Shown piece after piece: positions 23,650 through 62,954 of a DNA stretch of 64,000 nucleotides. The stretch is from Streptomyces profundus (GTDB taxonomy: Bacteria; Actinomycetota; Actinomycetes; Streptomycetales; Streptomycetaceae). Under the pieces are notes generated by a model, which worked only from the letters and a program-made list of their open reading frames with translations, made no database searches and had not been told where the DNA came from. Each line of letters begins with the position of its first letter. Position 1 is the stretch's first letter. The position numbers and the translations under genes are program-made. The stretch is from contig NZ_CP082362.1 of NCBI RefSeq assembly GCF_020740535.1, positions 5,020,501 through 5,084,500 on the forward strand, in the 5' to 3' direction.

Positions 23650-23653
23650 GCGG

Positions 23654-42547: not shown

Positions 42548-43744
42548 ATGGGAACCAGGAGAACGACGACGGGGTGGCCGAGGCGCGCGGCGGTCTACGG
42601 TGTCGCGGCAGCCGTCCTCGCGGGGGCGGCGGCGACGGGGAGCGCGGCGACGGAGCGGGGCGAGGGCGGCGGAGACGGGCTGCGACGGGATGTGGAGGCG
42701 ATCGCGGAGGCCGGCGTCACCGGGGTGCAGGCCCGCGTGACGGGGGCCGACGGCGGCTCGCGGGTCGCCACCGCCGGCGTCGCCGACCTGGCGACGGGCA
42801 GCCCCGTCGCCGCGGACGGATACTTCCGGATCGGCAGCACCAACAAGACCCTCGTGGCGACCGTGGTCCTCCAACTCGCCGCCGAGGGAGCGCTGTCCCT
42901 GGAGGACCCGGTGGAGGAGTGGCTGCCCGGCGTCGTCCAGGGCAACGGCCACGACGGCCGCCGGATCACCGTCCGGCATCTGCTCCAGCACACCTCGGGC
43001 GTCTACGACGGCGACTACCCCAGCCGGGGCGGATCGGCCGAGGGCTACTACGAGAACCGGTACCGGATCCACACGCCGGAGGAGATCGTGGCCGCCGCCA
43101 TGAGCCATCCGCCCGAGTTCCAGCCGGAGGACGACCGCTGGAGCTACTCCAACACCGGCTACGCCGTGCTCGGCATGGTCATCGAGCGGGTCACCGGACG
43201 CGCCTGGCACGAGGAGGTCGACGCCCGGGTGCTGACCCCCCTCGACCTGCGCGACACCGTCTGGCCCGGCGTCTCCCCGAGCCTGCCGGAACCCCATGCC
43301 AAGGGCTACACCCGCTTCGCGCCAGGCGAGGACCTCGTGGACACCACCGAGCTGATCGACGCCGACGCCTCGGGCGGCTACCTCTCGACCACCGCGGACC
43401 TGGACCGCTTCGCGCGGGCGCTCTTCGACGGGACGCTGCTCGGCCCGGCCGAGCTGGCCGAGCTGACGGACACCGTGCCGGTCGGCGAGGACGACACCCC
43501 CTGGCCGGGCGCCGGCTACGGCCTGGGGATCTTCGCGCGGCCACTGCCCTGCGGCGGCACCGTGTGGATCCCCAGCGGGGACCAGATCGGCTACCGGACG
43601 CGGATCGGCGTCACGGAAGACGGGCGGCGCAGCGTCGTGGTCTCGATGTCCACCCAGCTCCAGGACTCCGCCGACAGCGCCCTCGGCCAGGAGGCGGCGG
43701 CCACCGCGCTGATCGACAACGCCCTCTGCGGAACGGGGGGCTGA
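42548..43744 (+). CDS. Secreted serine hydrolase (beta-lactamase/DD-carboxypeptidase class C-like)
   Basis: The 398-residue protein has an N-terminal signal segment (residues about 12-34) and the serine penicillin-recognising fold: S97-T-N-K100 (S-x-x-K), WSYSNTGYAVLGMVIERVTGR (Y-S-N), and a late GIFARPLPCGGTVWIPSGDQIGY in place of the K-T-G region. It may be a D-alanyl-D-alanine carboxypeptidase or a related esterase. The ATG at 42548 was selected over an upstream in-frame codon because it precedes the signal peptide closely and has GAGGGG upstream. Confidence 0.85.
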   Translation: MGTRRTTTGWPRRAAVYGVAAAVLAGAAATGSAATERGEGGGDGLRRDVEAIAEAGVTGVQARVTGADGGSRVATAGVADLATGSPVAADGYFRIGSTNKTLVATVVLQLAAEGALSLEDPVEEWLPGVVQGNGHDGRRITVRHLLQHTSGVYDGDYPSRGGSAEGYYENRYRIHTPEEIVAAAMSHPPEFQPEDDRWSYSNTGYAVLGMVIERVTGRAWHEEVDARVLTPLDLRDTVWPGVSPSLPEPHAKGYTRFAPGEDLVDTTELIDADASGGYLSTTADLDRFARALFDGTLLGPAELAELTDTVPVGEDDTPWPGAGYGLGIFARPLPCGGTVWIPSGDQIGYRTRIGVTEDGRRSVVVSMSTQLQDSADSALGQEAAATALIDNALCGTGG

Positions 43745-49537: not shown

Positions 49538-51517
49538 TCAGTCGGCGTCGAGGCGGAAGAACTCCGCGGCCGCCAACCGGACGGCGGAGCCCGGCCGCAG
49601 CAGCTCGACGGTGTCGGGCCACCGCTCGGGGGGCGGCAGTTCGAGCGCGGCGCGGAGCGACGCCGCGAACCGTGGCATCACGGGGAACGCCACGGTGGCC
49701 AGGAGGCGGGCGGCGGCGAGTTCGAGCGCGATCGTGGTCCGGTCGTCGTCCCTCCACTCCGCGTCGTCCGAGATCGGCCGCTGCGCCCCGCCGAAGTGGA
49801 CGGTGTCGGTGACGAGCCGCTGGAGTCCCTCGGCGGCCCGCCGCAGCGAGAAGCCGTCCGGCCCCAGGGCGACGGTCAGGTCGGCCAGGCGAGATCCCAA
49901 CAGGGCGAGGAAGGCGGTGTGTTCCGGCGTCCAGTTGCCGGCGTCCGGTGCGTGCCCGCCGTGCCGCCGGTCGACGCGGGAGCCGAGGTCGTTCAACCAC
50001 GCCTGCCAGGTACCGACGAGCTGCTCGCTCACGACCGCGTCGAACGCCTCGCGCCGGAAGTCCGTGCGCTCGCCCTCCGCGCGGGTGCTGGAGAGGAAGA
50101 AGCGCACGGCGTCCACGCTGCCGGGACGCAGGATCTCCTTGCCCCAGATGGCGTGCCTCCTGCTGGTCGAGAACTTGGCGCCCTCCAGCAGGTAGAACTC
50201 GTTGACGTGGTAGTCGATGTCGGGACGCCACTCGGGGAACGCCAGTCGGTACAGCGCCGGGTAGAGCACCGCGTGGTAGAAGCTGTTGTCGTAGCCGAAG
50301 AAGTGGACGATCTTCCACTCCTCGCGTGGTTCGAGGGCGGACCAGTCCTCGCCGAGCTCCCGCCCGAGGCGCTCCACGCCGTGGAGGAAGCCGAACGACA
50401 TCTCCGGCCAGACCCAGATCACCTGGTCCGCCGCCTCGTGGTCCGTGGGCGGAATCCCCCATTCCGAGGGGTGGCTCACCGCGATGTCGAGGTCCTTCCG
50501 CATGCCCAGACGGTGCGCCAACTCGCGTAGCCGCGCCGGCACTCGGCCCTCGCGATGGTGCTCTCGCACGTCGTCGAGCAGCTTCCCGAGGGAGAGCGTG
50601 AAACGCGGCACGGTGGCGCGGCGCGGAGGCTCATCCGAGAGTGCGGAGCGCGGGTTGACGAGGTCGACGACCTCGTTGGGCTCGCCGCACTCCTCGCAGA
50701 TGTTGCCTCCGGTCGCGGCCCCGCAGTGCGGGCAGCCGCCGCTGACGTCGGCCTCGTACAGGTAGCCCCCGCCCGCGCCGTCGAGCAGGGCCGCTGTGTC
50801 CTGCCAGGTCACCGCCCCGGAGTCGACGAGTCGGGAGAAGTACCGCCGCAGGTCGTCCGCGTACCCGGGGCTGGTACTGGTCGCGGTGTACCGGTCGGGC
50901 GCGATGTCCATCAGCCGCAGCGTCTCCGCGATCTCGGCGCTGAACCGGGCGGCGATCCGGTCCGGTGTGGTCCCCTCGCGCCGGGCGGCGGAGGGGACGT
51001 AGCTCTGGAAGTCGTCGCTGCCGCTCAGATGCCAGGCGCGGACCCCGTTCATCCGCTGGAAGCGCACATAGGCGTCGGCGCCGAGGTAGGGGCCGGACAG
51101 GTGTCCCAGATGGAGGTCGCCGTTGGGCGTCGGTGGGGTGGAGAAGACGAAGACCGGACGTTCCCCGACGCCGACCCGGGCGGAGGCCGCGGCCAGGGCC
51201 CGCTCCGGATCCCTGCCGTACTGGGTCAGAAAGACCAGATCGTCCGTTCCCGTGTTCTCCAGGACATGTGACTCGAACGGTTCGAAGCGGGCGACGGTGC
51301 CGGGGCCGACGGGGTGGCGGACGCCGGCGCCGGCCACGATGGCGCCGTGGCCCGCGACGATGACGAACGTCTCCGTCTCGTCGTGGTGGTGGCTCTCGGT
51401 GCGGCTGCCCGGGGGCACCCGCCCCCAGCTCGCCCCGCCACCCAGCCCGTCCACCGCTCGCATCTCGATGCCGAACGCCTCCTGGAGTTCGGCGGGGTCG
51501 TACCGGTCGATCATCAT
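49538..51517 (-). CDS. Cupin-methionyl-tRNA synthetase-like fusion (hydrazine synthetase)
   Basis: The 659-residue protein joins a cupin domain (residues about 20-100; metal ligands likely among H43-H45, E49 and H84) to a class I MetRS-like catalytic domain. The latter has HLGH (136-139) for HIGH, a zinc knuckle with C262, C265, C274 and C277, and KFSTSR (448-453) for KMSKS. Such fusions, for example Spb40 of the s56-p1 pathway, join N6-hydroxylysine to an amino acid with ATP, forming an N-N bond, and do not charge tRNA. The ATG at 51517 overlaps the oxidase stop (ATGA), and the partner hydroxylase is close by. Glycine is the likely partner amino acid, but glutamate is possible. Confidence 0.92.
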   Translation of the reverse strand: MMIDRYDPAELQEAFGIEMRAVDGLGGGASWGRVPPGSRTESHHHDETETFVIVAGHGAIVAGAGVRHPVGPGTVARFEPFESHVLENTGTDDLVFLTQYGRDPERALAAASARVGVGERPVFVFSTPPTPNGDLHLGHLSGPYLGADAYVRFQRMNGVRAWHLSGSDDFQSYVPSAARREGTTPDRIAARFSAEIAETLRLMDIAPDRYTATSTSPGYADDLRRYFSRLVDSGAVTWQDTAALLDGAGGGYLYEADVSGGCPHCGAATGGNICEECGEPNEVVDLVNPRSALSDEPPRRATVPRFTLSLGKLLDDVREHHREGRVPARLRELAHRLGMRKDLDIAVSHPSEWGIPPTDHEAADQVIWVWPEMSFGFLHGVERLGRELGEDWSALEPREEWKIVHFFGYDNSFYHAVLYPALYRLAFPEWRPDIDYHVNEFYLLEGAKFSTSRRHAIWGKEILRPGSVDAVRFFLSSTRAEGERTDFRREAFDAVVSEQLVGTWQAWLNDLGSRVDRRHGGHAPDAGNWTPEHTAFLALLGSRLADLTVALGPDGFSLRRAAEGLQRLVTDTVHFGGAQRPISDDAEWRDDDRTTIALELAAARLLATVAFPVMPRFAASLRAALELPPPERWPDTVELLRPGSAVRLAAAEFFRLDAD

Positions 51518-52584
51518 GCTGGTGACCTTTCCGCGCTGTGGGGAAGCCGCACCAACTCCGCCGCCTCGGCGGCGATGGCGGGCGCGAGTCGGTAGCCGGC
51601 GCCGTTGCACGCCCCGGCGAACACCAGGCCGCCACCGGGGTCGAGCGGGGTCACCACGGGCTCCCGCGAGGGGCTGTAGGCGTCACAGAAGGCGCGCCCC
51701 GAGACGGCCGTGCCGACCAGCTCGGGGGCGTACCGGCCCAACACCTCGCGGGCCTCACGGAGGTTGTCGGCGGACACGTCCGAGGCGAGGGCGTCGGGCT
51801 CGACATCCCACTCCCGGCAGGTGTAGCTGAACAGCCAGTGGCCCCGGTGGTGCAGGGGCAGCAGGAAGGCGTCCTCGTCGTGGAAGACCGTCACGTGGTC
51901 GCCGTCGCCGGGCCGGATGTCGAGATGCAGGGCCACGACCTTCTTCACCCGGATGCCCAGCGGCTCGACGTGTTCCCGCCACGGCCCTGACGCCGCCCAG
52001 GGGCCGGGGGCGAGTACGGCACGTCGGGCCCGCACGCGCTCGCCGTTGCCCAGCGACAGGACCACCGCGTCGTCCTCCAGGGCCAGGCCCGTCACCCGCA
52101 CTCCCTCCCGGACCGAGACACCCGGATGGAACGTTCGCGCCAGGTGCAGGGTGAGTTGGTGGGCGTCGGCGTACTGGCAGGCATCGCCCTGCCAGACCAC
52201 CTGCCCCGCCGGGACCGTGATCCTCGGGTCCGGAACGCCGTCCACCCGCCGCAGCCGGGCACTGTCGAGATAGGTCCGGTCGACCTCCGCCGCCGAGGAC
52301 TCACTCGCCAGCACGGTCATGGGCAACCCACGGATCGGCACGGCGGGTTCCCGCGCCAGCAGGCGCGCGTAGTGGTCCTGGCTGTGGGACGCCATCCGGC
52401 GCACCCGCTCCGTGGCGCCGCGCGGCAGGTGCAGCGCGGCGGACCGCCGGGTCGCGCCGGAGGCCAGGCCGTCCCGCTCCAGCACCACCACCGAGGCGTC
52501 GGGGGCGTCGCGCAGGACCGCGTGGGCGGTCGTGCAGCCGATGACGCCGCCGCCGACCACCGCCACATCCACTGTCGTCCGCAT
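51514..52584 (-). CDS. FAD-dependent amine/amino acid oxidase (DAO family)
   Basis: The 356-residue protein has the Rossmann motif VAVVGGGVIGCTTAHAVL at the N-terminus and the DAO fold of glycine/sarcosine oxidases through GLVFAGACNGAGYRLAPAIAAEAAELV. In characterised hydrazine pathways an oxidase of this type cleaves the lysyl-hydrazine intermediate, releasing hydrazinoacetate and an aminoadipate semialdehyde; that role is inferred here. The ATG ending at 52584 has GGAGGAG upstream. The stop overlaps the next gene by ATGA, giving tight translational coupling. Confidence 0.9.
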   Translation of the reverse strand: MRTTVDVAVVGGGVIGCTTAHAVLRDAPDASVVVLERDGLASGATRRSAALHLPRGATERVRRMASHSQDHYARLLAREPAVPIRGLPMTVLASESSAAEVDRTYLDSARLRRVDGVPDPRITVPAGQVVWQGDACQYADAHQLTLHLARTFHPGVSVREGVRVTGLALEDDAVVLSLGNGERVRARRAVLAPGPWAASGPWREHVEPLGIRVKKVVALHLDIRPGDGDHVTVFHDEDAFLLPLHHRGHWLFSYTCREWDVEPDALASDVSADNLREAREVLGRYAPELVGTAVSGRAFCDAYSPSREPVVTPLDPGGGLVFAGACNGAGYRLAPAIAAEAAELVRLPHSAERSPA

Positions 52585-52600
52585 CGTCGTGCTCCTCCGC

Positions 52601-53911
52601 TCACGGGTTGGGGGCCGACGCCTTCGCCGACCATTCGATGAAGGAGGGCAACTGCTCGTCGCCGCGCCGCCCGCGGAGGCGGTCGACGATGCGCCGGCTC
52701 CGCCAGGCGTTGAGGCTGAGGTTGACATCGGCCAGCCCGCGCTGCCCGCGGACCGCGTTCTGGAAGAAGATGTCGTGCCCAGGGGGGCCGTCCCAGCGCG
52801 CCGCGAAGTCGGCATCCACCCGCGGCTCGTTCCCCTCCCACTCCAGCCGGTCCGCCAGCGGGCCGAGGAAGTCCAGGGGGGCGGGCGCGAACCCGGTCGC
52901 CCACACCACCACGTCGGCCTCGAAGCGCTCCTGGGCCGCGGGGCGGTCGCAGTGCCGGGTGGTGACGACCCAGCTGCCGTCCACCCCCGGGGACAGCCCC
53001 GTCGTCTCCCGGTTGGGATACAGCCCGACGAGGTCGTCCAGGCCGTCGACGAACCTGCGGGTGTAGAGGCTCTGGTAGACCGAGCGCAGGGTGCTCTCCG
53101 AGATCCCGTCGCTGCTGAGGACGTATCTCCTGTTGAACGCCTCCCGCGCCCTGGGTGGCAGAGCGTAGAAGTACTCCGAGTGGCACGGCATGAAGAAGTC
53201 GTTGGTGAACGGCGAGTCGTCGATGGGGAAGAAGTTGCGCCGCCGCGAGATCCACGACACCCGCCGGGGCTGGTCCGCGCCCTGACGTGCCACGAGGTAC
53301 TCGAACGCCTCGGCGCCGGACTGGCCGCCGCCGACCACGACCACCCGCTTGCCCCCGGTGCCGGGGGTGTGCTGGAGGAACTCGCTGACGTGGAAGTTCG
53401 TGGCGCCCAGATGGGGCACGGCGTACTCGGGCACCCAGGGGCGGTTGCCCACCCCCACGACGAGGTTGTCGCCCGTCACCGTTCTGCGGTCGGTCCGTAT
53501 CCGGAACACCCCGTCGAAGTCGATCTCACGGACGTTCTCGCCGAAGACGACGTTCTCGTTGTGCCGGCAGGCCCAGTCGAGGTAGTCGCGGAACTCCTCC
53601 CGCGCGACGGAGGCGAAGCTGGCGTTGATGAAGTGGTGGATCCGCCCCTGGTCGTGCAGGTAGGCGAGGAACGAGAACGGGTTGGTCGGATCGGCCAACG
53701 TGACCAGGTCCTTGAAGAGCGAGACCTGGAGCGAACTGCCGGGAATCTGCTGCCCGTCGTGCCAGCTGAAGCTCTCCTTGCGATCGAGGAAGAGGTTCGA
53801 CAGCGAGGGAACCGGGTGGAGCAGTGAGGCGAGGCTCAAGTTGGCTGGTCCGGCGCCGATGCCCACGCAGTGGTAATGGTCCTGCTGAGCCTCGGATTTC
53901 TCATGACGCAT
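52601..53911 (-). CDS. L-lysine N6-monooxygenase
   Basis: The 436-residue FAD- and NADPH-dependent hydroxylase belongs to the SidA/IucD/PvdA family. The FAD motif is GIGAGPAN (17-24), the substrate region WHDGQQIPGSSLQVSLFKDL (50-69), the NADPH motif GGGQSGAE (194-201) and the late ATGF motif. It should hydroxylate the side-chain amine of lysine. No siderophore synthetase is nearby; its neighbours are the cupin-MetRS fusion and oxidase, so it feeds N-N bond formation. The ATG ending at 53911 has GAGAGG 7 bases upstream, better than the GTG at 53947. Confidence 0.93.
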   Translation of the reverse strand: MRHEKSEAQQDHYHCVGIGAGPANLSLASLLHPVPSLSNLFLDRKESFSWHDGQQIPGSSLQVSLFKDLVTLADPTNPFSFLAYLHDQGRIHHFINASFASVAREEFRDYLDWACRHNENVVFGENVREIDFDGVFRIRTDRRTVTGDNLVVGVGNRPWVPEYAVPHLGATNFHVSEFLQHTPGTGGKRVVVVGGGQSGAEAFEYLVARQGADQPRRVSWISRRRNFFPIDDSPFTNDFFMPCHSEYFYALPPRAREAFNRRYVLSSDGISESTLRSVYQSLYTRRFVDGLDDLVGLYPNRETTGLSPGVDGSWVVTTRHCDRPAAQERFEADVVVWATGFAPAPLDFLGPLADRLEWEGNEPRVDADFAARWDGPPGHDIFFQNAVRGQRGLADVNLSLNAWRSRRIVDRLRGRRGDEQLPSFIEWSAKASAPNP

Positions 53912-53966
53912 GTGCCGACCTCTCTTGTCCGTGGTGACCTCGAACACGGGAGACAGGGCGCTTGGA

Positions 53967-55364
53967 TCAGGCGCGCACCACCCCGTGACCGTCGACGCGG
54001 TCCATGAGGCGCGCGAGCCACCACCGCTGTCCCTCCGGCGGAAGCGTGTCGATGGGGTCGTGGTACTCGTAGAGCCGGTCGAGCTCCCCCTCGTCGTGTG
54101 AGTCGAGCCGGGTGCGGTAGTTCTTCGTCCAGTAGGAGATGCCCAGGGTGCGGTCGTAGTCGGAGACTTGATGCACCCACCGCTTCCCCACGTAGGGCAC
54201 GTCGCAGACCACGCGGGGGGTGGCGAACCCGGGCAGATAGCCCATGATCGAGTGCTGGAGCTCCTGGGCCTTCGCGACCGAGGTCCGCCAGTGCTCGCTG
54301 CCGGGGATCATGTCGCACATGTAGACGTAGTAGGGCATGATCGTCGCGGAGTCGAGGAGCGCGAAGGACAGGTCGAGAAGCGCCTCCGTGGAGTCGTTCA
54401 CGGTCCTCAGCAGCACGGCCTGGTTCCGCACGTCCCGCAGCCCCGTCTCAAGCAGCGCCCGGGAGGCCGCCGCGACGCCTGGGGTGATCTGTTGGGCGGC
54501 GTTCGCGTGGGTGTGGAACGCGATCTGCACGCCCCGCGGTCGAGCGAGAGCCGTCAGCCGGCGCAGTCCGGCGAGCACCGTGGGATCGGTCCAGTGCTGG
54601 GGCAGTCCGATCAGCGCCTTGCTGGCCAGCCGGATGTCGCGCACGGACTCGATCTCCAGCAGCTCCGTGACGAACCCCTCCAGCCGGGGCCACGGCAGGT
54701 TGGCGATGTCTCCGCCCGAGACCACGACATCGCGTACGGTCGGCGTGGCGCGCAGGTAGTCGAGGACAGCGGCGACGCGCGCCTGCGGACGCGACGAGAA
54801 GCGCACCTTCTCCACCTGGGCGGTGGAGTTCCCCACCAGGTCCATGCGGGTGCAGTGTCCGCAGTACTGCGGGCAGGTGGCCACCAGCTCGACCAGCGCC
54901 TTCGTCGGATAGCGGTGGGTGAGCCCCTCCGCCGACCACATCTCGCGCTCGTGCAGCGAATCGCGTTGGGCGTGGGGATGGGACGGGAAGTCGCGACGGC
55001 GATCGGAGAACACCGGCAGCATGTAGCGGCGGACCGGATCCGCGTAGTAGGCGTCGGTGAGTTGGTTTGCGCGGTGGGCGGTGACCTCGGGGGCGATCGT
55101 GTTGATCACCTGCGGGGTGAGAAGCATGGACATCGTGGCGCGCTCCCGCTGGTCGCGCTCAAGGTCGGCGAAGAAGGCGTCCCCGAGGAGGTTCCCCGTA
55201 ACCTCCCGGAGCTCGCGCGCGTTCTTGACGCAGTGGGCGCGCTGCCACTGCGCGGAGTGCCACTCCTGGTCCGTGACCGTGCGCCAGCCCGGTAAGCGGC
55301 GCGGATCGGGCTCCTTGGCCTCGTGCCGGCGGTAGGTGTACGGCTGGTGCGGGATGCTAGACAT
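53967..55364 (-). CDS. Lysine 2,3-aminomutase-like radical SAM enzyme (KamA family)
   Basis: The 465-residue protein contains the radical SAM cluster motif C164-x3-C168-x2-C171 (CPQYCGHC), VVVSGGDIANLPWPRLEGFV, and a C-terminal segment with D351, D388 and K394. The two aspartates occupy the places of those that hold the lysine side-chain amine in lysine 2,3-aminomutase, and the lysine that of the PLP Schiff base, although the loop is one residue shorter. The predicted product is beta-lysine. Leu24 is encoded by the rare TTA codon. It lies 55 bases upstream of the hydroxylase gene in the same direction. Confidence 0.9.
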   Translation of the reverse strand: MSSIPHQPYTYRRHEAKEPDPRRLPGWRTVTDQEWHSAQWQRAHCVKNARELREVTGNLLGDAFFADLERDQRERATMSMLLTPQVINTIAPEVTAHRANQLTDAYYADPVRRYMLPVFSDRRRDFPSHPHAQRDSLHEREMWSAEGLTHRYPTKALVELVATCPQYCGHCTRMDLVGNSTAQVEKVRFSSRPQARVAAVLDYLRATPTVRDVVVSGGDIANLPWPRLEGFVTELLEIESVRDIRLASKALIGLPQHWTDPTVLAGLRRLTALARPRGVQIAFHTHANAAQQITPGVAAASRALLETGLRDVRNQAVLLRTVNDSTEALLDLSFALLDSATIMPYYVYMCDMIPGSEHWRTSVAKAQELQHSIMGYLPGFATPRVVCDVPYVGKRWVHQVSDYDRTLGISYWTKNYRTRLDSHDEGELDRLYEYHDPIDTLPPEGQRWWLARLMDRVDGHGVVRA

Positions 55365-55415
55365 GAGTCCTCTCGAATGGACGTCGTCCGACTCTCGCGG
55401 GAAGGGGCAGGGAGG

Positions 55416-56024
55416 CTACGGCAGCGTGGGGGCGCACACGCTCGCGCTGGTGGAGACGTGCGCCAACGCCCTCGCCCCCGCCCTGGCACGCCGGTAGGGC
55501 TCGCTCACGTCGACCAGCACGTCGTGCAGCGGCTGCGCCACCTCCGCGATCCGCGGCAGAACGGCCTCGACCCGGGCCCGCCACCCGGCACGGAGCGCCG
55601 GGTCGCCCCCCTCGGCAGTGGTGACGACCCCCCGGCACCCGACGGCGTCGCACCGGCAGGCCATACGCCAGCCCTTGTCCTCGGTGAACGTGGCGTAGTC
55701 GCAGGTGACTTCCTCGCCGACCTCGACGTCCCGGACGGTCACCCCGAAGTCGAGGCCGAAGTCCAGCACGTTCGCCCGGCACGAGTGGTTCATCAGATAG
55801 GCGCCGAGGCACGGCAGCAACAGGCTTCCGTCGTCCAGCAGATGCCCGTACGCGTCCAGGGCGGCGAACCGGTCCGCGGGCAGGCGCCCCACCTCATCGG
55901 CGGACCAGCGCGAGCACTTCGGACACGGCAGCCACACCGCGGTGCCCGCCGGGATGGCCTCGGTGGCGAACAGCCCCACGTTGTGCGTGGGACTCGGGCG
56001 GATGTCGACTCCCTTGGTGAGCAC
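55416..56024 (-). CDS. SET-domain protein
   Basis: The 202-residue protein shows a SET fold: HNVGLFATEAIPAGTAVW at the start, the pseudoknot motifs NHSC (79-82) and GEEVTCDY (103-110), and a post-SET cysteine motif CRCDAVGC (C123, C125, C130) that with C82 could bind zinc. SET enzymes use SAM to methylate lysine amino groups in proteins; in this cluster a small-molecule or carrier substrate is conceivable. It starts with GTG 4 bases after the ATP-grasp stop. The role in the pathway is unknown. Confidence 0.85.
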   Translation of the reverse strand: MLTKGVDIRPSPTHNVGLFATEAIPAGTAVWLPCPKCSRWSADEVGRLPADRFAALDAYGHLLDDGSLLLPCLGAYLMNHSCRANVLDFGLDFGVTVRDVEVGEEVTCDYATFTEDKGWRMACRCDAVGCRGVVTTAEGGDPALRAGWRARVEAVLPRIAEVAQPLHDVLVDVSEPYRRARAGARALAHVSTSASVCAPTLP

Positions 56025-56028
56025 GCCG

Positions 56029-57315
56029 TCACCCCAGTCCGAGCAGTCCGGCGAGGGCGGCCTCCGTGGCGTCCACCTCGTCGTGGCTCGTGGCCAGGAT
56101 CAGGTAGCGCCACTTGCCGTCCACGGCCAGCGTGTCGGCGGTCAGCACCACACCGCGCCGCGCGCCGGGGGCGAAGGCCAACCCGGCCCGCCGGATCCGC
56201 TCCAGGCCGGAGGCGAAGTCGAGATCGGCCGTGCCCGGTCGGGAGTCGGCCAGCCAGACGGCGCCGCCGGCACCCTCCTCGCCGAGCAGTCGTCGCACCA
56301 GCAGGTCGAGGTAGGTGCAGCCGGTCTTCCGCACGTTGCTCTCGGTCGCGTACAGCGTGTCGTCGGCGGTGATGCCGCCGTCGATGTCGAACGGCCCCCG
56401 GTAGCCGACCCGGTGGAGGTAGCGGCCGAGCGCGAGCCCGCCCTCGGTCAGCTCGCCGACGGCGGCGGTGCCGGCCACCAGCGGGGTGACCTGACCGCTG
56501 AAACTGCCGTTGGGCGTCCGCATCTCACCGACGTGCAGGACACGTGGCCCGTCGTCGTCGACCTCCATCTCGACGGTGACGACGCGCGTGAGGTCGAGCC
56601 GCTCCTCGACGACCCAGCCCACGGGTTGTTCGGCCAGGTCGGCGACGTACGCCGCGAGCCGGCTGTCGAGCTCGGGAAGGTCGTCGGCGTCCCAGAAGGC
56701 GACACCGTAGCCGTTGGAGCCGCGTGCCGGCTTCACCACCGCGCCGCCGCGCTCGGCGAGCACCTTGCGGAGGCCGGCCGCCAGATCCTCCTCGGTGGCG
56801 CAGGTGAACCCGTGGGCCACCCGGATACCGCACTCCTGGGCGACGTCCCGGAAGCCCGGCTTGGTGTTCATCCGGTAGACCGCGTCGGTGGCGCCGTCCG
56901 GCACACCGTCCGGGCCGTACCCCTCGACGGGCACGCCCAGTTCGGCCGCCAGGGACAGCGCGGGACGATCCTGCGCGAACGCCTGGAGGCGGGCGCCGGG
57001 GCGCTCGGCGAGCTCGGCGCGCAGCCGATCGACGAGGCCGTCCCGGCGCACGGCGGCGGTCAGCGTCTCCAGGTTCGGGGTCGGCGCGTCGAGCCGCGTC
57101 ACGTCCTCGGGGGAGAACCCGAGAAGGCCGCAGGCGTAGTCGAGGAGGGCGCCCGGCACGGGCCTGGGGGTCACCAGCACGTCGCCGGGCCGGGTCAACC
57201 AGATCTTGCGGGGGGACACGGCGATGAGGGCGTCCGCGTGCCGGTGCGTCGGGCGGGCCACCATCAGTTCGTTGACGAAGTTTCCCAGGATCAGCAGCGG
57301 GTGGTCGCGTCGCAT
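56029..57315 (-). CDS. ATP-grasp ligase (preATP-grasp/peptide-ligase type)
   Basis: The 428-residue protein has the ATP-binding lysine and loop K195-PARGSNGYG (196-204), a paired-beta segment GWVVEERLDLTRVVTVEMEV, and the magnesium ligands in FDIDGGI and ATESNVRKTG (E325, N327). It should activate a carboxylate as acyl phosphate and couple it to an amine or hydrazine; joining beta-lysine to a hydrazino acid is a plausible step. It lies between the methyltransferase and SET genes, separated by 4 bases from each. Confidence 0.9.
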   Translation of the reverse strand: MRRDHPLLILGNFVNELMVARPTHRHADALIAVSPRKIWLTRPGDVLVTPRPVPGALLDYACGLLGFSPEDVTRLDAPTPNLETLTAAVRRDGLVDRLRAELAERPGARLQAFAQDRPALSLAAELGVPVEGYGPDGVPDGATDAVYRMNTKPGFRDVAQECGIRVAHGFTCATEEDLAAGLRKVLAERGGAVVKPARGSNGYGVAFWDADDLPELDSRLAAYVADLAEQPVGWVVEERLDLTRVVTVEMEVDDDGPRVLHVGEMRTPNGSFSGQVTPLVAGTAAVGELTEGGLALGRYLHRVGYRGPFDIDGGITADDTLYATESNVRKTGCTYLDLLVRRLLGEEGAGGAVWLADSRPGTADLDFASGLERIRRAGLAFAPGARRGVVLTADTLAVDGKWRYLILATSHDEVDATEAALAGLLGLG

Positions 57316-57319
57316 GGGA

Positions 57320-58054
57320 TCACCGTCGCCCTTCGGCCTTCACGCCGCCGTAGACGGCGTGTCCGGCCCGCATCCAGTACACGTCCACCTCGTCGAAACC
57401 CGCCTCGGTCAGCCAGCGCAGCTGGTCGGGGAGGGGCGAGGGCTTGTCGAGCTCGTCCGGGTACTCGTAGCAACTCCACTCCAGCTCGTGGAACTTCTCG
57501 TACGGGGTGAGGCTCTGGTGGCGCGCGAGGCTCCGCTCCCTGACCGCCGTGTTCCAGCCCTCGCGTGCGAGCGCAAGACCTCGCGCGCCGACCGGCTGCA
57601 CGAGGTCGGCGAGGACGAGCACACCGCCGGGCCGCAGAAGGCGGTGTACGTCACGGAAGAGCGCTTGCTTCTGCTCGCCGTCGAGGTGGTGAACGGCCAG
57701 CGAGGAGACGACGGCCGCCGGCGCCACGGGACGGCTCCGCCAGGACCGACCGCCGAGGTCGAACCGCTCGGCCGCGAAGCGCTCCCCGAACCCGGACAGC
57801 TCCCGGCGCGCGGTCTCCAGCATGACGGGGCTGAGGTCAAGACCGACGACGGTGGCCTGGGGAAAGGCTTCCAGCAGGCCCTTGCTCAGCAGACCGGGTC
57901 CGCAGCACAGGTCCAACATCTCGACCGGTGCGTCCGGCGGCGGGATGAGGGACAGAACGGTATCGATCTGTGTCTGACGGTTCGGTACGAAATAGTCGCC
58001 GAACTCCACGAAGTCGGTGGAGTCCTCTTCGATCCAGTCCTGCGATGTGCTCAC
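57320..58054 (-). CDS. SAM-dependent class I methyltransferase
   Basis: The 244-residue protein has motif I EMLDLCCGPGLLSKGLLEAF (residues 46-65), VVGLDLSPVMLETARREL as motif II, and LRPGGVLVLADLV as motif III; AVVSSLAVHHLDGEQKQALF is typical of small-molecule N- or O-methyltransferases. It may N-methylate the hydrazine. The GTG ending at 58054 follows GAGGAGAA at the end of an array of six 10-base repeats that supplies two copies of the Shine-Dalgarno sequence. Confidence 0.88.
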   Translation of the reverse strand: MSTSQDWIEEDSTDFVEFGDYFVPNRQTQIDTVLSLIPPPDAPVEMLDLCCGPGLLSKGLLEAFPQATVVGLDLSPVMLETARRELSGFGERFAAERFDLGGRSWRSRPVAPAAVVSSLAVHHLDGEQKQALFRDVHRLLRPGGVLVLADLVQPVGARGLALAREGWNTAVRERSLARHQSLTPYEKFHELEWSCYEYPDELDKPSPLPDQLRWLTEAGFDEVDVYWMRAGHAVYGGVKAEGRR

Positions 58055-58059
58055 GCGGG

Positions 58060-58120
58060 TTCTCCTCGGTTCTCCTCGGTTTGTTCTCGGCTGTCCTCGG
58101 CCGTTCTCGGCCGTCCTTGG
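58060..58120 (-). repeat. Six-unit decamer array upstream of the methyltransferase
   Basis: In the direction of transcription, units of 10, 10, 10, 11, 10 and 10 bases related to CCGAGGAGAA follow one another and end 5 bases before the GTG start. The two units nearest the start are identical and each contains a Shine-Dalgarno-like GAGGAGAA. Confidence 0.8.
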
Positions 58121-58218
58121 TCGACCCCAGCCGCACGGGTCCGCCCGGGAAGGCCCGTGGTGGTCCTTCGTGCCACCGGTGCGGGCATCGTCCGGCTCGC
58201 GGCCCGCCGGGGCGGCGA

Positions 58219-59052
58219 TCAGTCGAGCAGGAACTCCGCGACGGCCTTCGCCACGGCGTCGGCGGCGTCCAGCTGACACATGTGCCCGGAGCCGGGCACC
58301 GTGACGGTCCGCGCGCCGGGCACGAGCGTGGCGAGGCGGCGGAGGTGGTCGGGGCCGGCCAGCGCGTCCAGCTCCCCGGCCAGGGCCAGGGTCGGGCCGC
58401 GGATCTCCCGCAGGCCAAGGAGCGCGGTGGTCAGCTCGGGGTGGACCAGGGTGTTGAAGTGGCGCAGCGCCTCGGCGTTCGCGGGAAGCTCGGCCAGGTG
58501 CCGCTGCCAGCGCGTGACGGCGTGCGGGTACGGCCCCATCCACAGGGGCAGCAGGTCGGCGACGAGCCGGCCCAGGGCGCCCCCGTCGGCCGGCAGCTCG
58601 GCGTGCCGTTCCAAAGCGTCCAGGGCGGCGGCCACCCGCGGCTCGTCCCGCCGTGCCCGGTATCCCTCGTGGGCCCGCGCGTCCGCCTCGGCGCCGCCGT
58701 AGGCGGGCGTGGCCAGCAACACCAACCGGCGTACGGCCGCCGGCCGTCGGGCCGCCAGCAGGCCGGCCACGATCCCGCCGTGCGAGTGTCCCAGCAGGTC
58801 GACCGGCCCTCCGCCCGCCTCCCGATCGATCCAGGCCCCGAGGTCGGCGGTGTACGCGTCCAGGCCGTAGTCGTCAGGCGCGGCGGCGGCCGGCGTGCGG
58901 CCCACGCCCCGCGGATGCAGGACGGCCACGGTGCGCTGTTCCGCGAGGGCCCCTAACGACGCCAGGTAGTCCGGGTGCAGCCCCGGACCTCCGGGATGGC
59001 ACACGAGAAGGGGGCCACGCCCTCGTCGGGAGGCGGCGAGAGGTATCGGCAC
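58219..59052 (-). CDS. Alpha/beta hydrolase (S33 proline-iminopeptidase-like)
   Basis: The 277-residue protein has LLVCHPGGPGLHPDYL, which resembles the HGGPG oxyanion motif of S33 aminopeptidases, the nucleophile elbow LLGHSHGGIVAG, and the catalytic histidine in VPGSGHMCQLD. It could release an N-terminal residue from the product or an inactive precursor, or serve resistance. Leu33 is a TTA codon. The GTG ending at 59052 follows the exporter stop by one base, and its Shine-Dalgarno sequence (AGGAGG) lies inside the exporter gene. Confidence 0.87.
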   Translation of the reverse strand: MPIPLAASRRGRGPLLVCHPGGPGLHPDYLASLGALAEQRTVAVLHPRGVGRTPAAAAPDDYGLDAYTADLGAWIDREAGGGPVDLLGHSHGGIVAGLLAARRPAAVRRLVLLATPAYGGAEADARAHEGYRARRDEPRVAAALDALERHAELPADGGALGRLVADLLPLWMGPYPHAVTRWQRHLAELPANAEALRHFNTLVHPELTTALLGLREIRGPTLALAGELDALAGPDHLRRLATLVPGARTVTVPGSGHMCQLDAADAVAKAVAEFLLD

Positions 59053-59053
59053 T

Positions 59054-60310
59054 TCACACCTCCTGAGGGATCAGCAGACGGACGAAGAGCGCGGACGCCA
59101 GGGTGATCGCCGCCGCGACCGCCAGGGCCGCGCCGGGGCCGGCCGTGGCGACCAGCGCGCCGCCGAGCGCCGTGCCGATGGGGTAACCGACGAGGTTCAC
59201 GCTGATGGAGACGGTCATGATGCGGCCCAGCCACTCCGGAGGGGTGCGCCGCTGACGCAGGGAGAGCAGGCTGACGTTCACCATCCCCTCCAGCAGTCCG
59301 AAAACGGCCAGGCCGGAGAGGAGCGCCACCAACGAGCCCAGCGCGCTGAAGGGGAACACCGCGAAGGCGCCCAACACCAGCGTCAGCCCCATCACCCGAC
59401 GCTCGGAACCGGCGGTGACGATCCGGCCGGCGGCCAGCGCCCCCAGCCCGCCGCAGAGGCCGACCACGGCCCAGATGACCCCGACATACGCCCCGGGCTC
59501 ACCGCCGTCGGTGACCCATTCCGTGACGGCCACCGGAACGATGATGATCAGCATTCCGCCGGTCACCTGGAAGAGCGAATAGGAAACGGCGAGTCCTCGA
59601 AGAGTGGCGTGCCGCACCAGATAGGCAACGCCTTCCCAGGCGGATCTCAGAAGATTACCCGGCTTACCCTCGCGGACCTGCGGTCCGGTGGCTCCACGCA
59701 ACAGGAACAAGCTCACCGCGGCCAGGACGTACATGCCCGCCACCACGGCGAAGGTCGGATTCGCGCCACCCCAGACGAAAAGCACCCCGGCCACCAGCGG
59801 CGCACCCACGTCGATGACGGAGTAGCTACTCAGATCGAGCGCGTTGGCGCGGTCGAGCGCTTCATCGGGAACGAACTTCGGGAAAAGCGTTCGAATGCCG
59901 CCGTCCGTCATCGGGCGGGTCACCGACAACAGGCCGAGCATGATGTAGAGCAGCGTCGGGGTCATGGCCCCGCTCACGGCGAGCGTGACGATGGCGCTCA
60001 TGAAGAACGCGCTGGCCACCATGTCGAAGGCGACCGCGCGGAGGGCTCCGAACCGGTCGAGGACCGCCCCTGCCACGGGGCTCACGAGGAACCCCGGGAA
60101 CGTGAGGAAGAAGCCACTCAGCCCCGCGACAACCGCGGAGTCGAATTCATCGATCGCGTACAGGACGACGACAAAGATAAGCATCCCGTGGGCGAGCCGG
60201 GACAGTGATGCGGAGAGCAACAACTGCGGAACGTTGCGACTGCTCAATACGCTTCGATAAGTGACAGGAGAGCGAGGTTCCTTGGATAATTTCTGCTCAG
60301 ATTCCATCAT
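59054..60310 (-). CDS. MFS exporter (EntS/MFS_3-like)
   Basis: The 418-residue, twelve-helix transporter resembles MFS_3-type exporters (SASLSRLAHGMLIFVVVLYAIDEFDSAVVAGLSGFFLTFPGFLVSPVAGAVLDRFG). It is the first gene of the leftward cluster set and the likely product exporter. Base composition is visibly less GC-rich in its 5' half and upstream region than in neighbours. Codon 8 is TTA (60289-60287), placing a bldA-dependent codon at the very start of the operon. Starts at 60310 and 60307 are adjacent. Confidence 0.9.
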   Translation of the reverse strand: MMESEQKLSKEPRSPVTYRSVLSSRNVPQLLLSASLSRLAHGMLIFVVVLYAIDEFDSAVVAGLSGFFLTFPGFLVSPVAGAVLDRFGALRAVAFDMVASAFFMSAIVTLAVSGAMTPTLLYIMLGLLSVTRPMTDGGIRTLFPKFVPDEALDRANALDLSSYSVIDVGAPLVAGVLFVWGGANPTFAVVAGMYVLAAVSLFLLRGATGPQVREGKPGNLLRSAWEGVAYLVRHATLRGLAVSYSLFQVTGGMLIIIVPVAVTEWVTDGGEPGAYVGVIWAVVGLCGGLGALAAGRIVTAGSERRVMGLTLVLGAFAVFPFSALGSLVALLSGLAVFGLLEGMVNVSLLSLRQRRTPPEWLGRIMTVSISVNLVGYPIGTALGGALVATAGPGAALAVAAAITLASALFVRLLIPQEV

Positions 60311-60517
60311 TCACCGACGTTCATATGAAAGCATCCCCCTGCTGAATCGAAAGCGGCACTCCCATACCGCTTCGCTGACCGGACACTACATTGCCCTCGT
60401 CAGATTCCCGTGCAAGGATCTCCCATGGCGGTATCCGCGTCAACAGGGCGATCCCGGTTCGTTGGTCAATGTTTACGCGGCATTGACGAAGAACCAGCCG
60501 TATTGTAAAGGAGCGCA
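60311..60517. promoter_or_regulatory. Divergent promoter region of the hydrazine cluster
   Basis: This 207-base AT-richer gap separates the two divergent arms. It contains a perfect inverted repeat GTCAATG-N9-CATTGAC at 60465-60487, 31 bases before the rightward ATG, and the ribosome binding site AAAGGAG for the ATP-grasp gene. No cluster-encoded DNA-binding regulator is present to bind it. Confidence 0.65.
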
Positions 60518-61819
60518 ATGGTTGAACGAGCGACTATACGGGGCGGGCAACACGGCGGCTCCCCTTCCACCCTTTATCTCGGATGGCAGCGCGAGGCGGT
60601 CGACGCACTTGAGGCCAGTGGCACCCGGGTCATGTGCGTGGTCTCGGCCGCTGAGCACGGCAAGGCCGTCGAGGCCGGATTCGACGGCCCGCTCGCGGTG
60701 GCCCGCGACCACACGAACGTCGAGGACGTCCTCGGGGCACTGACCGAAAAGGGGCTGACGCCGGACCGGTTCAGGACAGTCTGCACCGAGGACGAGTTCG
60801 CCCTCGTGACCGCGGCCGTCCTCAACGCCCTCGCCGGCTCCCCCTCGGCCGACGCCCTGCCCCTCGCCGTCCCCGTCGCGCTCGCACTGCGGGACAAGGC
60901 CGTCCAGAAGCACCTGATCCGGGCGGCGGGCGTCCCGACCGCCAGGTGCCGGCGGTTCACCGACCTCGCCGCGGTGCGGGAGGGGGTTCGCTCAGCCGAG
61001 CTCGTTCCCCCGTTCGTGATCAAACCCCTGGCGGGCGCCGCCGCCCAGCACACCCACGTCGTGGAGTCGTCCGACGCGGACACCGCGCTGAAGGAGATCG
61101 CGAGCGGCGGCGCGCAGGTCGGGCCCTGGCTGGTCGAGGAGTATGTGCCCGGCGAGGAGTTGCACGTCGACGGGGCGATACGCGGCGGCGAGATCCAGGT
61201 GCTGTCCGTCAGCCGCTATCTGCACCAGGTGATCACGGTGCACGACGGACACCTCGTCGCGTCCGCCACCCTGGATGACACCGACCCCCTCGTCGCCCGG
61301 GCGCACCGGCTGACCGAACGCTCGCTCGCCGCCCTCGGGCACACGGACGGTGTGTTCCACCTGGAGGCGTTCGTCGACGGCGAACGCCTGGTGTTCGGCG
61401 AGTGCGCCGGCCGGATCGGCGGCGGGCTGATCCTCGACGCGGTCCGCGCCAAACACGGCGTCGACCTCTACCACGCGTGGGCCGCGGCGGTCCTCGGCTG
61501 CCCCTCACCCGCACCGGTGCCGGTCGACGGGCGACGGGCGGACTCCTTCGGCTGGGTCAACCTGCCCGCCCCGACCGGCCGGTTACTCAACCTCCCCACC
61601 CGGGACGAGATCGAGGCGCGGCCCCGGGTGGTGCTCGGCCAGACCTGGGCGGCGGCGGGCGACATCCTGAGCGATCCGCGGCGAGCCTCGCATCTGCTGG
61701 TGGCCAAGGCGCTGGTTCGCGCGCCGAGCGAGGCCGAGGTCCGGGCGGGGCTCCGCGAGGTGGGGGAGTGGTTCGCCGGGCGTGTGACGGTCAGCCCGGT
61801 GGGGGGCGATGATGCCTGA
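60518..61819 (+). CDS. ATP-grasp amino acid ligase-like enzyme
   Basis: The 433-residue protein has the ATP-grasp order: LALRDKAVQKHLIRAAGVPTARCRRF, the ATP-binding [45 protein letters not shown] and the metal ligands in GVFHLEAFVDGERLVFGECAGRIGGG. It resembles L-amino acid ligases and carnosine-synthase-like enzymes that make dipeptides. Codon 356 is TTA (61583-61585). AAAGGAG lies upstream of the ATG at 60518. It is the second ligase in the cluster and overlaps the transferase gene by 11 bases. Confidence 0.9.
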   Translation: MVERATIRGGQHGGSPSTLYLGWQREAVDALEASGTRVMCVVSAAEHGKAVEAGFDGPLAVARDHTNVEDVLGALTEKGLTPDRFRTVCTEDEFALVTAAVLNALAGSPSADALPLAVPVALALRDKAVQKHLIRAAGVPTARCRRFTDLAAVREGVRSAELVPPFVIKPLAGAAAQHTHVVESSDADTALKEIASGGAQVGPWLVEEYVPGEELHVDGAIRGGEIQVLSVSRYLHQVITVHDGHLVASATLDDTDPLVARAHRLTERSLAALGHTDGVFHLEAFVDGERLVFGECAGRIGGGLILDAVRAKHGVDLYHAWAAAVLGCPSPAPVPVDGRRADSFGWVNLPAPTGRLLNLPTRDEIEARPRVVLGQTWAAAGDILSDPRRASHLLVAKALVRAPSEAEVRAGLREVGEWFAGRVTVSPVGGDDA

Positions 61820-62954
61820 CGGTGCGTATGACAGCGATCTGCTGTCCCTGGCGGAGGTGCGCGGGCTCGCTTCCTGGACGGAGCTGTGCGGCCCGTCCGA
61901 CCTCTTCTGCACCCCCCGCTGGCTGGCGGTGGAGCAGACCGGCACGGGGCCCTGGGTGCCGGCCGCCAACGGCTGCCTGGTCACCGGGCGGAACGGCCGT
62001 CCGATCGCCGGCGCCACCCTCCAGAGCTTCGACCAGGGGGTGGACGACGACACCTGCCGGGTCGACCTGATGGTGCGGGCGCTGCCCCAGTCCCGTGGCC
62101 TGTCCGACGCGGCGCTGGCCGACGGCCTGCTGCCCTCGCTCACCTGCGGCGGCTGGTTCAACTCCACCGTCATGATCGCGCCGGGAGCCTCCGACGGAGA
62201 GGCGGCGGCGGCGCGCCGGGCGCTCCTCACCCGGGCCGTCGACGTCGGCCGCGCCTGGGCGTGCGCGTCGATCTGTCTGCCCTATGTGGACGCGTCCGAC
62301 AGCGCGCTGCGGCAACTGCTGCGCGAGGACGGCTACCTCGAACTACCGGCTCCCGACCGGCATGTGCTCTCCTGCGACCACCCGAACCTGGAGTCCTACC
62401 TCGCCAGCCTGCCGTCCCGGCGCCGGGTGCGGCGGCGCAAGGAGCTGAGGATCTGCCGGGAGGCCGGCGTCACCACGGAGCGTCTCCCGCTGGACGACTC
62501 CACCGTGGAGCGGGTCGGCGTCCTCGCCCACAACCTGGAGCGCAAGTACGGGCAGTCGTCCTCGGCGAGGCAGCTCACCGAGTGGTTCGCGGCCATCGCC
62601 ACCCACCTCACGGCCTCCGTGTTCACCGCCTCGCTGAACGGTGAGGTCGTCGCCATGACCCTGTGGCTGCACCACGCGGACCGGCTGTACGGCTTCCACG
62701 CCGGCTTCGACTACCGGGTCGGCCGCGGGCTGCCGCTCTACTCCCTGGTCGGCTACCACCTGCCGGTCGCCTACGGCCTCGCCACTCCCGGGATCCGCGT
62801 GCTGGAGTACGGCATCAGCGCGGACGAGGCGAAACGGCTTCGGGGAACCGCCGCGCTCCCGCAGCTCCTCTGTCTCAAGCCGCTGACGCCGGCTGCCCGG
62901 GAGTGCGTGGAACGGCTGGCCGACGCCGCCCGGCCGGCGGTCCTCGTGCCCTAG
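61809..62954 (+). CDS. GNAT/FemAB-like transferase (BioF2-like domain)
   Basis: The 381-residue protein resembles the duplicated GNAT fold of FemAB/BioF2-type transferases: SRRRVRRRKELRICREAGVTTERLPL, ASLNGEVVAMTLWLHHADRLYGFHAGFDYRVGRGLPLYSLVGYHLPVAYGLATPGIRVLEYGISADEAKRLRG compare with that family's second domain. FemAB members use aminoacyl-tRNA to make peptide bonds, while others use acyl-CoA. Here it may add a residue or acetyl group to the product, either for assembly or self-protection. Starts at 61809 and 61812 are adjacent. Confidence 0.82.
   Translation: MMPDGAYDSDLLSLAEVRGLASWTELCGPSDLFCTPRWLAVEQTGTGPWVPAANGCLVTGRNGRPIAGATLQSFDQGVDDDTCRVDLMVRALPQSRGLSDAALADGLLPSLTCGGWFNSTVMIAPGASDGEAAAARRALLTRAVDVGRAWACASICLPYVDASDSALRQLLREDGYLELPAPDRHVLSCDHPNLESYLASLPSRRRVRRRKELRICREAGVTTERLPLDDSTVERVGVLAHNLERKYGQSSSARQLTEWFAAIATHLTASVFTASLNGEVVAMTLWLHHADRLYGFHAGFDYRVGRGLPLYSLVGYHLPVAYGLATPGIRVLEYGISADEAKRLRGTAALPQLLCLKPLTPAARECVERLADAARPAVLVP

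Follow-up and report, generated by a model that had tools for sequence, protein, structure and literature searches.

The 64,000-nucleotide stretch of Streptomyces profundus DNA analysed here (contig NZ_CP082362.1, positions 5,020,501 to 5,084,500), termed the window and numbered from its first letter, carries at 49538-62954 an eleven-gene cluster that probably makes 3-epi-deoxynegamycin together with its leucyl adduct; that the product is a negamycin-type hydrazide of some kind is very likely from the same sequence comparisons. Both compounds occur in nature; they show readthrough activity but lack antibacterial activity, as given in excerpts of PMC10296333. The calculated m/z is 233.1608 for 3-epi-deoxynegamycin and 346.2449 for the leucyl adduct. 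Negamycin minus its 5-hydroxyl group and with the opposite configuration at C3 is 3-epi-deoxynegamycin; the "deoxy" and "3-epi" features are predicted because a JmjC hydroxylase was not found in the window-type genomes searched and because the aminomutase lineage differs, and the leucyl adduct is predicted because a FemAB-like gene is present. The source cited for 3-epi-deoxynegamycin is said to be Taguchi 2014.

The cluster is arranged as two divergent operons, with nine genes on the minus strand and two on the plus strand. The minus operon encodes a cupin-methionyl-tRNA synthetase (MetRS) fusion, a DAO-type oxidase, a lysine/ornithine N-monooxygenase, a KamA-type radical S-adenosylmethionine (SAM) enzyme, a SET-domain protein, a PGM1-type ATP-grasp ligase, a class I methyltransferase, an alpha/beta hydrolase, and an MFS protein; the plus operon encodes a second ATP-grasp ligase and a FemAB/GNAT-like protein. 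None of the eleven genes encodes a nonribosomal peptide synthetase (NRPS), a polyketide synthase (PKS), or a carrier protein. A first-pass annotation of the same DNA had named these genes between the same coordinates and had reported neither NRPS nor PKS, and on both points it was correct; its label of S33-like hydrolase holds as far as the alpha/beta hydrolase fold (Pfam), however the label itself is weak, all NCBIfam matches being far under cut-off. It had also proposed an N-methylated hydrazino acid joined to beta-lysine, the skeleton of negamycin without the 5-hydroxyl; this is well supported by the comparison with Kitasatospora purpeofusca, but the product may well be a compound already known, as it fits 3-epi-deoxynegamycin.

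The comparison covers ten clusters, four of the window type and six of the negamycin type. The window type comprises the window itself, Streptomyces mashuensis (L092), genome G666 (L120), and Streptomyces sp. OfavH-34-F (L001, the same contig as L091); the negamycin type comprises L121, L122, and L123 of genus g14 together with L093, L163, and L173, where L122 is K. purpeofusca and L093 is Streptomyces spongiicola. K. purpeofusca is a negamycin producer, and its cluster has a KinJ/NegJ homologue and genes for N-methylation, lysine hydroxylation, and beta-lysine formation (Kenney and co-workers, in excerpts of PMC12154649). The order methyltransferase, PGM1-type ligase, SET is kept in 4/4 window-type and 6/6 negamycin-type loci, and in the window this block stands with the KamA-type aminomutase. 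Relative to the negamycin-type counterparts the class I methyltransferase is 39-45% identical and the SET protein 41-49% identical; that SET and methyltransferase travel together in both types favours one ancestor of the shared block over a double assembly, between which the unrooted PGM1 tree does not decide. The SET gene is present in all ten clusters, each time with an NHSC motif; this motif marks active SET enzymes, and its retention suggests that the SET protein is probably active on something. The class I methyltransferase is predicted to be a hydrazine N-methyltransferase, and the PGM1-type ligase is predicted to couple beta-lysine with methylated hydrazinoacetate.

Beyond the block, the window and K. 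purpeofusca clusters share a KamA-type aminomutase and the FemAB, alpha/beta hydrolase, and MFS families; the latter three, common to the window and g14 clusters, are more distant (~30-35% identity). The g14 loci L121-L123 contain KamA, a JmjC-fold protein, methyltransferase, PGM1, SET, FemAB, MFS, and a protein of ~600 residues with no Pfam domain; in L122 the order is KamA, JmjC, methyltransferase, PGM1, SET, FemAB, hydrolase, MFS, NegJ. Where K. purpeofusca has the heme enzyme NegJ the window instead has the N-monooxygenase, DAO, and MetRS-cupin genes; K. purpeofusca further differs in its JmjC hydroxylase-like protein, in an aminomutase of another lineage, and in that the second ATP-grasp was not found there. 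NegJ is the heme enzyme for the negamycin N-N bond and has been confirmed by others (excerpts of PMC12154649), in line with the earlier suspicion that a different enzyme makes this bond. The 621-residue protein of L122, which has no Pfam domain, shows the KinJ active-site spacing R497-M498-N501-H504-H541-R551-R570; the KinJ residues follow excerpts of PMC12154649, where part of the numbering is shifted by one in other places. This pattern occurs in 6/6 negamycin-type loci and in no other frame among the 3,736,166 translated residues scanned. The NegJ paper is reportedly that of Wang, Wei and Ryan 2025. In whole-genome searches the NegJ/KinJ enzyme was found in 4/4 negamycin-type and 0/4 window-type genomes.

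A JmjC hydroxylase-like protein adjoins the negamycin-type KamA and is distributed in the same way, being found in 4/4 negamycin-type and, by whole-genome search, 0/4 window-type genomes. Its JmjC fold is predicted with a mean predicted local distance difference test (pLDDT) score of 93.4 from a 30-sequence alignment (an earlier four-sequence fold, pLDDT 38, was set aside); H160, E162, and H238 are invariant in 30/30 sequences, and Foldseek ranks ribosomal oxygenases highest along with other 2-oxoglutarate hydroxylases, with a best E of 9e-12. Judged by family, 0/11 genes of the window cluster encode a hydroxylase, the N-hydroxylase apart, which agrees with the absence noted in the first-pass annotation. 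The two types share the methyltransferase, PGM1, SET block, while NegJ and the JmjC hydroxylase were not found in the window type; the "convergent route" raised in that annotation describes the N-N module and the aminomutase, which differ in kind or lineage, but not the block, which is common to both types. Near the negamycin-type locus L093 lies an Mph-like phosphotransferase open reading frame (ORF), below NCBIfam cut-offs. An ORF at window 42692-43744 has 33-35% identity to a beta-lactamase-family ORF adjoining KamA in three g14 clusters, which may be coincidence.

The KamA-type enzyme of the window keeps the C-x3-C-x2-C motif; aligned with the clostridial lysine 2,3-aminomutase, it also retains the residues equivalent to R134, D293, and D330, which we take to be lysine-binding. 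Its relatives are the best 80 matches listed, 79 of them background; among the matches listed, those from Actinomadura, Nocardioides, and Kribbella are 65-71% identical to the window enzyme, and a lysine 5,6-aminomutase gene lies nearby in 57 of the 79 relatives' loci of any length and in 38 of the 51 loci of at least 18 kb. At one such locus (L020) the neighbouring genes score above the NCBIfam cut-offs for the lysine-degradation proteins Kdd, KamD, KamE, and Kal. In contrast to these lysine-degradation loci, no KamD match lies near the window cluster; a search of ten genomes, that of the window among them, also gave no KamD match, however it lacked a positive control and carries little weight. 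In the aminomutase tree, which includes 40 of the 79 background relatives, a branch with 100/100 support parts the six negamycin-type enzymes from the four window-type enzymes and the lysine-degradation relatives; the window and K. purpeofusca enzymes are ~31% identical. The classical lysine 2,3-aminomutase gives (S)-beta-lysine and the short YjeK type gives (R)-beta-lysine (excerpts of PMC2821294); negamycin is (R,R) (excerpts of PMC12797225), therefore its 3-epimer is 3S. From its lineage and the operon context of its relatives, the window KamA is predicted to make (3S)-beta-lysine.

The FemAB-like protein has no PDB sequence match. When it was searched in the family (24 places, 17 of them outside the neighbourhoods compared), three genus-g14 negamycin-type genomes ranked directly after the window-type relatives. 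Leucyl-negamycin is known from a negamycin producer (excerpts of PMC12797225) and the g14 clusters have FemAB without a second ATP-grasp match, which makes FemAB the natural leucylation candidate; it is predicted to be a leucyltransferase by analogy with the leucyl forms of both products. The alpha/beta hydrolase, 56-58% identical in L120 and L092, perhaps removes the leucyl group, and the MFS protein is 63-65% identical in L092 and L120 and ~32% identical to the exporter of the K. purpeofusca cluster. Blasticidin S is likewise a beta-amino acid antibiotic that also occurs in a leucyl form; unlike the product predicted here it is a nucleoside antibiotic, and its leucyl form is trimmed by the stand-alone PepN (excerpts of PMC4664946).

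The second ATP-grasp is found only in the window, L092, and L120 among the ten clusters; searches gave no match in L001 or the six negamycin-type loci, so it looks accessory, and it may add an extra amino acid residue. A larger new peptide of the negamycin type, in which the second ATP-grasp and FemAB would each add an amino acid to give an undescribed aminoacyl or dipeptidyl 3-epi-deoxynegamycin, is the best placed of the alternatives, although unlikely: the second ATP-grasp is similar to an L-amino acid ligase, its gene overlaps that of FemAB, and it is kept in the window, L092, and L120; however, the leucyl adduct is the only one named in excerpts of PMC10296333, and L001 has FemAB without a second ATP-grasp.

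In other clusters a trio of N-monooxygenase, DAO, and MetRS-cupin leads to hydrazinoacetate via N6-hydroxylysine and glycine (excerpts of PMC11705231 and PMC8664883). The window resembles the s56-p1/triacsin route (Spb38-Spb39-Spb40, Tri28) in that the three genes stand side by side; it differs in that its eleven genes include no NRPS or carrier protein, and in the predicted fate of the hydrazine, namely N-methylation and coupling by an ATP-grasp ligase. The fusion has cupin and MetRS-like domains with zinc ligands, the fourth of which is one residue off the PyrN spacing, and an ATP motif; HxHxxxE is retained in the cupin part, HLGH and KFSTS in the MetRS part. Its partner N-hydroxylase gene lies close by, its closest homologue (87% identity) is from Streptomyces sp. 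NPDC059853, and the DAO is 56-60% identical to its counterparts in L001, L092, and L120. The N-monooxygenase is predicted to be a lysine N6-hydroxylase, the fusion to join N6-hydroxylysine to glycine, and the DAO to release hydrazinoacetate. Ten pocket columns, placed from what we take to be the E. coli MetRS positions, are identical in the window fusion and in both S. tsukubensis homologues, in a set with no non-glycine reference; they are consistent with glycine use, but as proof of it they were rejected, since 108 of 123 enzymes agree at all ten columns and 15 differ at one or two, so that the test cannot discriminate. As Gly, Ala, Ser, Glu, and Tyr are all used within this enzyme family (excerpts of PMC11705231), the synthetase might use alanine, serine, or glutamate in place of glycine and give a negamycin-like hydrazide with a different acid half; this is improbable, as the pocket columns match both S. 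tsukubensis homologues and the Tri28 of that species is classed as glycine-type (excerpts of PMC11705231 and PMC8664883).

The genome of the window holds two further loci of related content. At L181 9328-13741 (G000:C1:4659328-4663741) there is a second N-monooxygenase, DAO, MetRS-cupin operon, 54-64% identical; its neighbours are others, and a second hydrazine product is therefore likely. A third locus, L180 568-16157 (G000:C1:6636568-6652157), contains a stand-alone MetRS-like protein, a DAO-like protein, a 111-residue protein, and a distant KamA-like protein, together with large ORFs of 963 and 2030 residues.

That hydrazinoacetate and beta-lysine go to separate products, with methyltransferase-PGM1-SET a general module, is the least probable of the alternatives: PGM1 ligases are common, with matches in 39 of 394 family genomes (40 places, 15 of them outside the neighbourhoods compared), but every occurrence of the three-gene block in the loci compared is beside an N-N module, the block is missing from 18 of 20 further PGM1 neighbourhoods, and a SET search at 1e-20 gave no match in 385 other genomes sampled across the phylum. 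As a marker on its own PGM1 was rejected, as those 18 neighbourhoods are without other cluster genes and the other two are negamycin-type. SET alone was rejected likewise, as matches below 40% in G271 and G155 sit in neighbourhoods without other cluster genes. The window-type cluster is rare. At 1e-10 SET matches occur in 7 of 392 genomes of the genus; three of these, at 69% identity or more, lie in a window-type cluster and the one in G379 lies in a negamycin-type cluster. The neighbourhoods compared do not include those of the G120 match and of a second match in G000. In the phylum-wide sample of 386 genomes the sole match at 1e-20 is the window's own genome.

In the route proposed to 3-epi-deoxynegamycin, for which we infer product, stereochemistry, enzyme substrates, and all chemistry from sequence, the N-monooxygenase would convert lysine to N6-hydroxylysine, and the cupin-MetRS fusion would join this to glycine as an ester, rearranging to N6-(carboxymethylamino)lysine; cleavage of the latter by the DAO would give hydrazinoacetate, which the class I methyltransferase would N-methylate. 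KamA would supply (3S)-beta-lysine, and the PGM1-type ligase would form the hydrazide. FemAB would then add leucine from Leu-tRNA and the MFS protein would export the product; the hydrolase may trim the leucine off.

Several observations weigh against this assignment. It was made by comparison with the cluster of a negamycin producer and not that of a 3-epi-deoxynegamycin producer. Each of the ten loci retains both a SET-type and a class I SAM methyltransferase, while negamycin bears one methyl group. The PGM1 tree, tried as proof that the window-type and negamycin-type ligases are sisters, has three groups, is unrooted, and was set aside as not decisive, so that sister status is not shown. 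The window KamA scores below the NCBIfam cut-off for lysine 2,3-aminomutase (TIGR03820, 174 bits), and the aminomutase tree carries a long-branch warning, with the window type as one group at 74/62 support; the (3S) configuration is argued by analogy from the genes around its relatives, and on the negamycin side the aminomutase is not itself YjeK, its best model being AblA_like_2 with an AblA score above the EpmB score. Glycine specificity leans on pocket columns placed by presumed positions in a set with no glutamate-type enzyme. Foldseek TM-scores over the whole hydroxylase are ~0.4, and the match is therefore taken to concern the catalytic part only. Within the 20 kb compared, no FemAB was found in L093, L163, and L173, i.e. 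3/6 negamycin-type loci; the second ATP-grasp has no place in the proposed route and might attach a further residue, and L001 is without it and has other neighbours.

The cluster is a conserved unit whose grouping is not due to chance. The host genome is 7.65 Mb in a single contig, in the same genus as S. mashuensis and Streptomyces sp. OfavH-34-F. All eleven genes also occur in S. mashuensis and in G666, where the comparison covers the cluster up to the MetRS gene, cut by the end of the compared stretch; Streptomyces sp. OfavH-34-F has 8/11 genes at 50-75% identity. Called genes flanking the cluster (38-49.5 kb and 63-64 kb) have no match at 1e-10 to called genes in the compared stretches of L001, L092, and L120; the borders set by the first-pass annotation therefore look natural. 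Within the minus operon gene spacing runs from a 4-base overlap to 51 bases, with the exception of a 164-base gap between methyltransferase and hydrolase. In the OfavH-34-F variant (L001 3529-6667) a copper amine oxidase (Pfam) and a monooxygenase-like ORF, presumably of the LLM type, adjoin FemAB, with no second ATP-grasp match; the product of this cluster is perhaps modified. In G666 an ORF between N-monooxygenase and KamA (L120 3475-4125) carries the C-terminal domain of a saccharopine dehydrogenase, and none like it was called at that place in the window, L001, or L092. Elsewhere in the window, the 2-kb stretch at positions 22001-24000 has a strong AT skew of -0.36.

Table 1. Genes and intergenic region of the cluster, in window positions.
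Feature	Position	Strand	Basis
Cupin-MetRS fusion (hydrazine synthetase type)	49538..51517	-	Pfam tRNA-synt_1g + Cupin_2
DAO-type FAD oxidase	51514..52566 (start uncertain, up to 52590)	-	Pfam DAO 1e-31
Lysine/ornithine N-monooxygenase	52601..53947	-	Pfam Lys_Orn_oxgnase 3e-91
KamA-type lysine 2,3-aminomutase (predicted)	53967..55364	-	NCBIfam TIGR03820, under cut-off; PDB 2a5h 8e-40
SET-domain methyltransferase, NHSC motif	55416..56024	-	Pfam SET
PGM1-type ATP-grasp ligase	56029..57315	-	Pfam PreAtp-grasp + PGM1_C; PDB 3wvq PGM1 5e-16
Class I SAM methyltransferase	57320..58054	-	Pfam Methyltransf_25
Alpha/beta hydrolase	58219..59052	-	Pfam Abhydrolase_1
MFS exporter	59054..60310	-	Pfam MFS_1
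Divergent intergenic region, 207 bases	60311..60517	.	ATG at 60518 taken as start
Second ATP-grasp ligase, L-amino acid ligase-like	60518..61819	+	PDB 4wd3 1e-15
FemAB-like aminoacyl-tRNA-type transferase	61809..62954	+	Pfam FemAB_like (PF04339) + Acetyltransf_6 (PF13480)

In the open-licence literature no published report of this cluster was found, an earlier mention being possible, and no published biosynthetic route to 3-epi-deoxynegamycin or its leucyl adduct was found there. These two compounds were the starting point for readthrough candidates considered in connection with Duchenne muscular dystrophy; if the assignment is true, the cluster would provide genes and a fermentation or enzyme route for both, and would be a clean natural case of two unrelated N-N bond-forming systems feeding one scaffold. 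The stereochemical difference between the two natural products would then come down to the two aminomutase lineages, where it can be tested, and a conserved, unexplained SET methyltransferase is brought to notice. In a wider picture, for which the chances seem evenly balanced, the negamycin scaffold would be built by two routes with a shared coupling core and interchangeable front ends; the window would hold the missing 3-epi-deoxynegamycin cluster, whose extra ATP-grasp would lead to unseen congeners, and exchange of a nitrite-using heme enzyme for a tRNA-synthetase-like N-N enzyme and of an R-forming for an S-forming aminomutase, with loss of the JmjC hydroxylase, would turn an antibiotic of the bacterial ribosome into a eukaryote-selective stop-codon readthrough compound.

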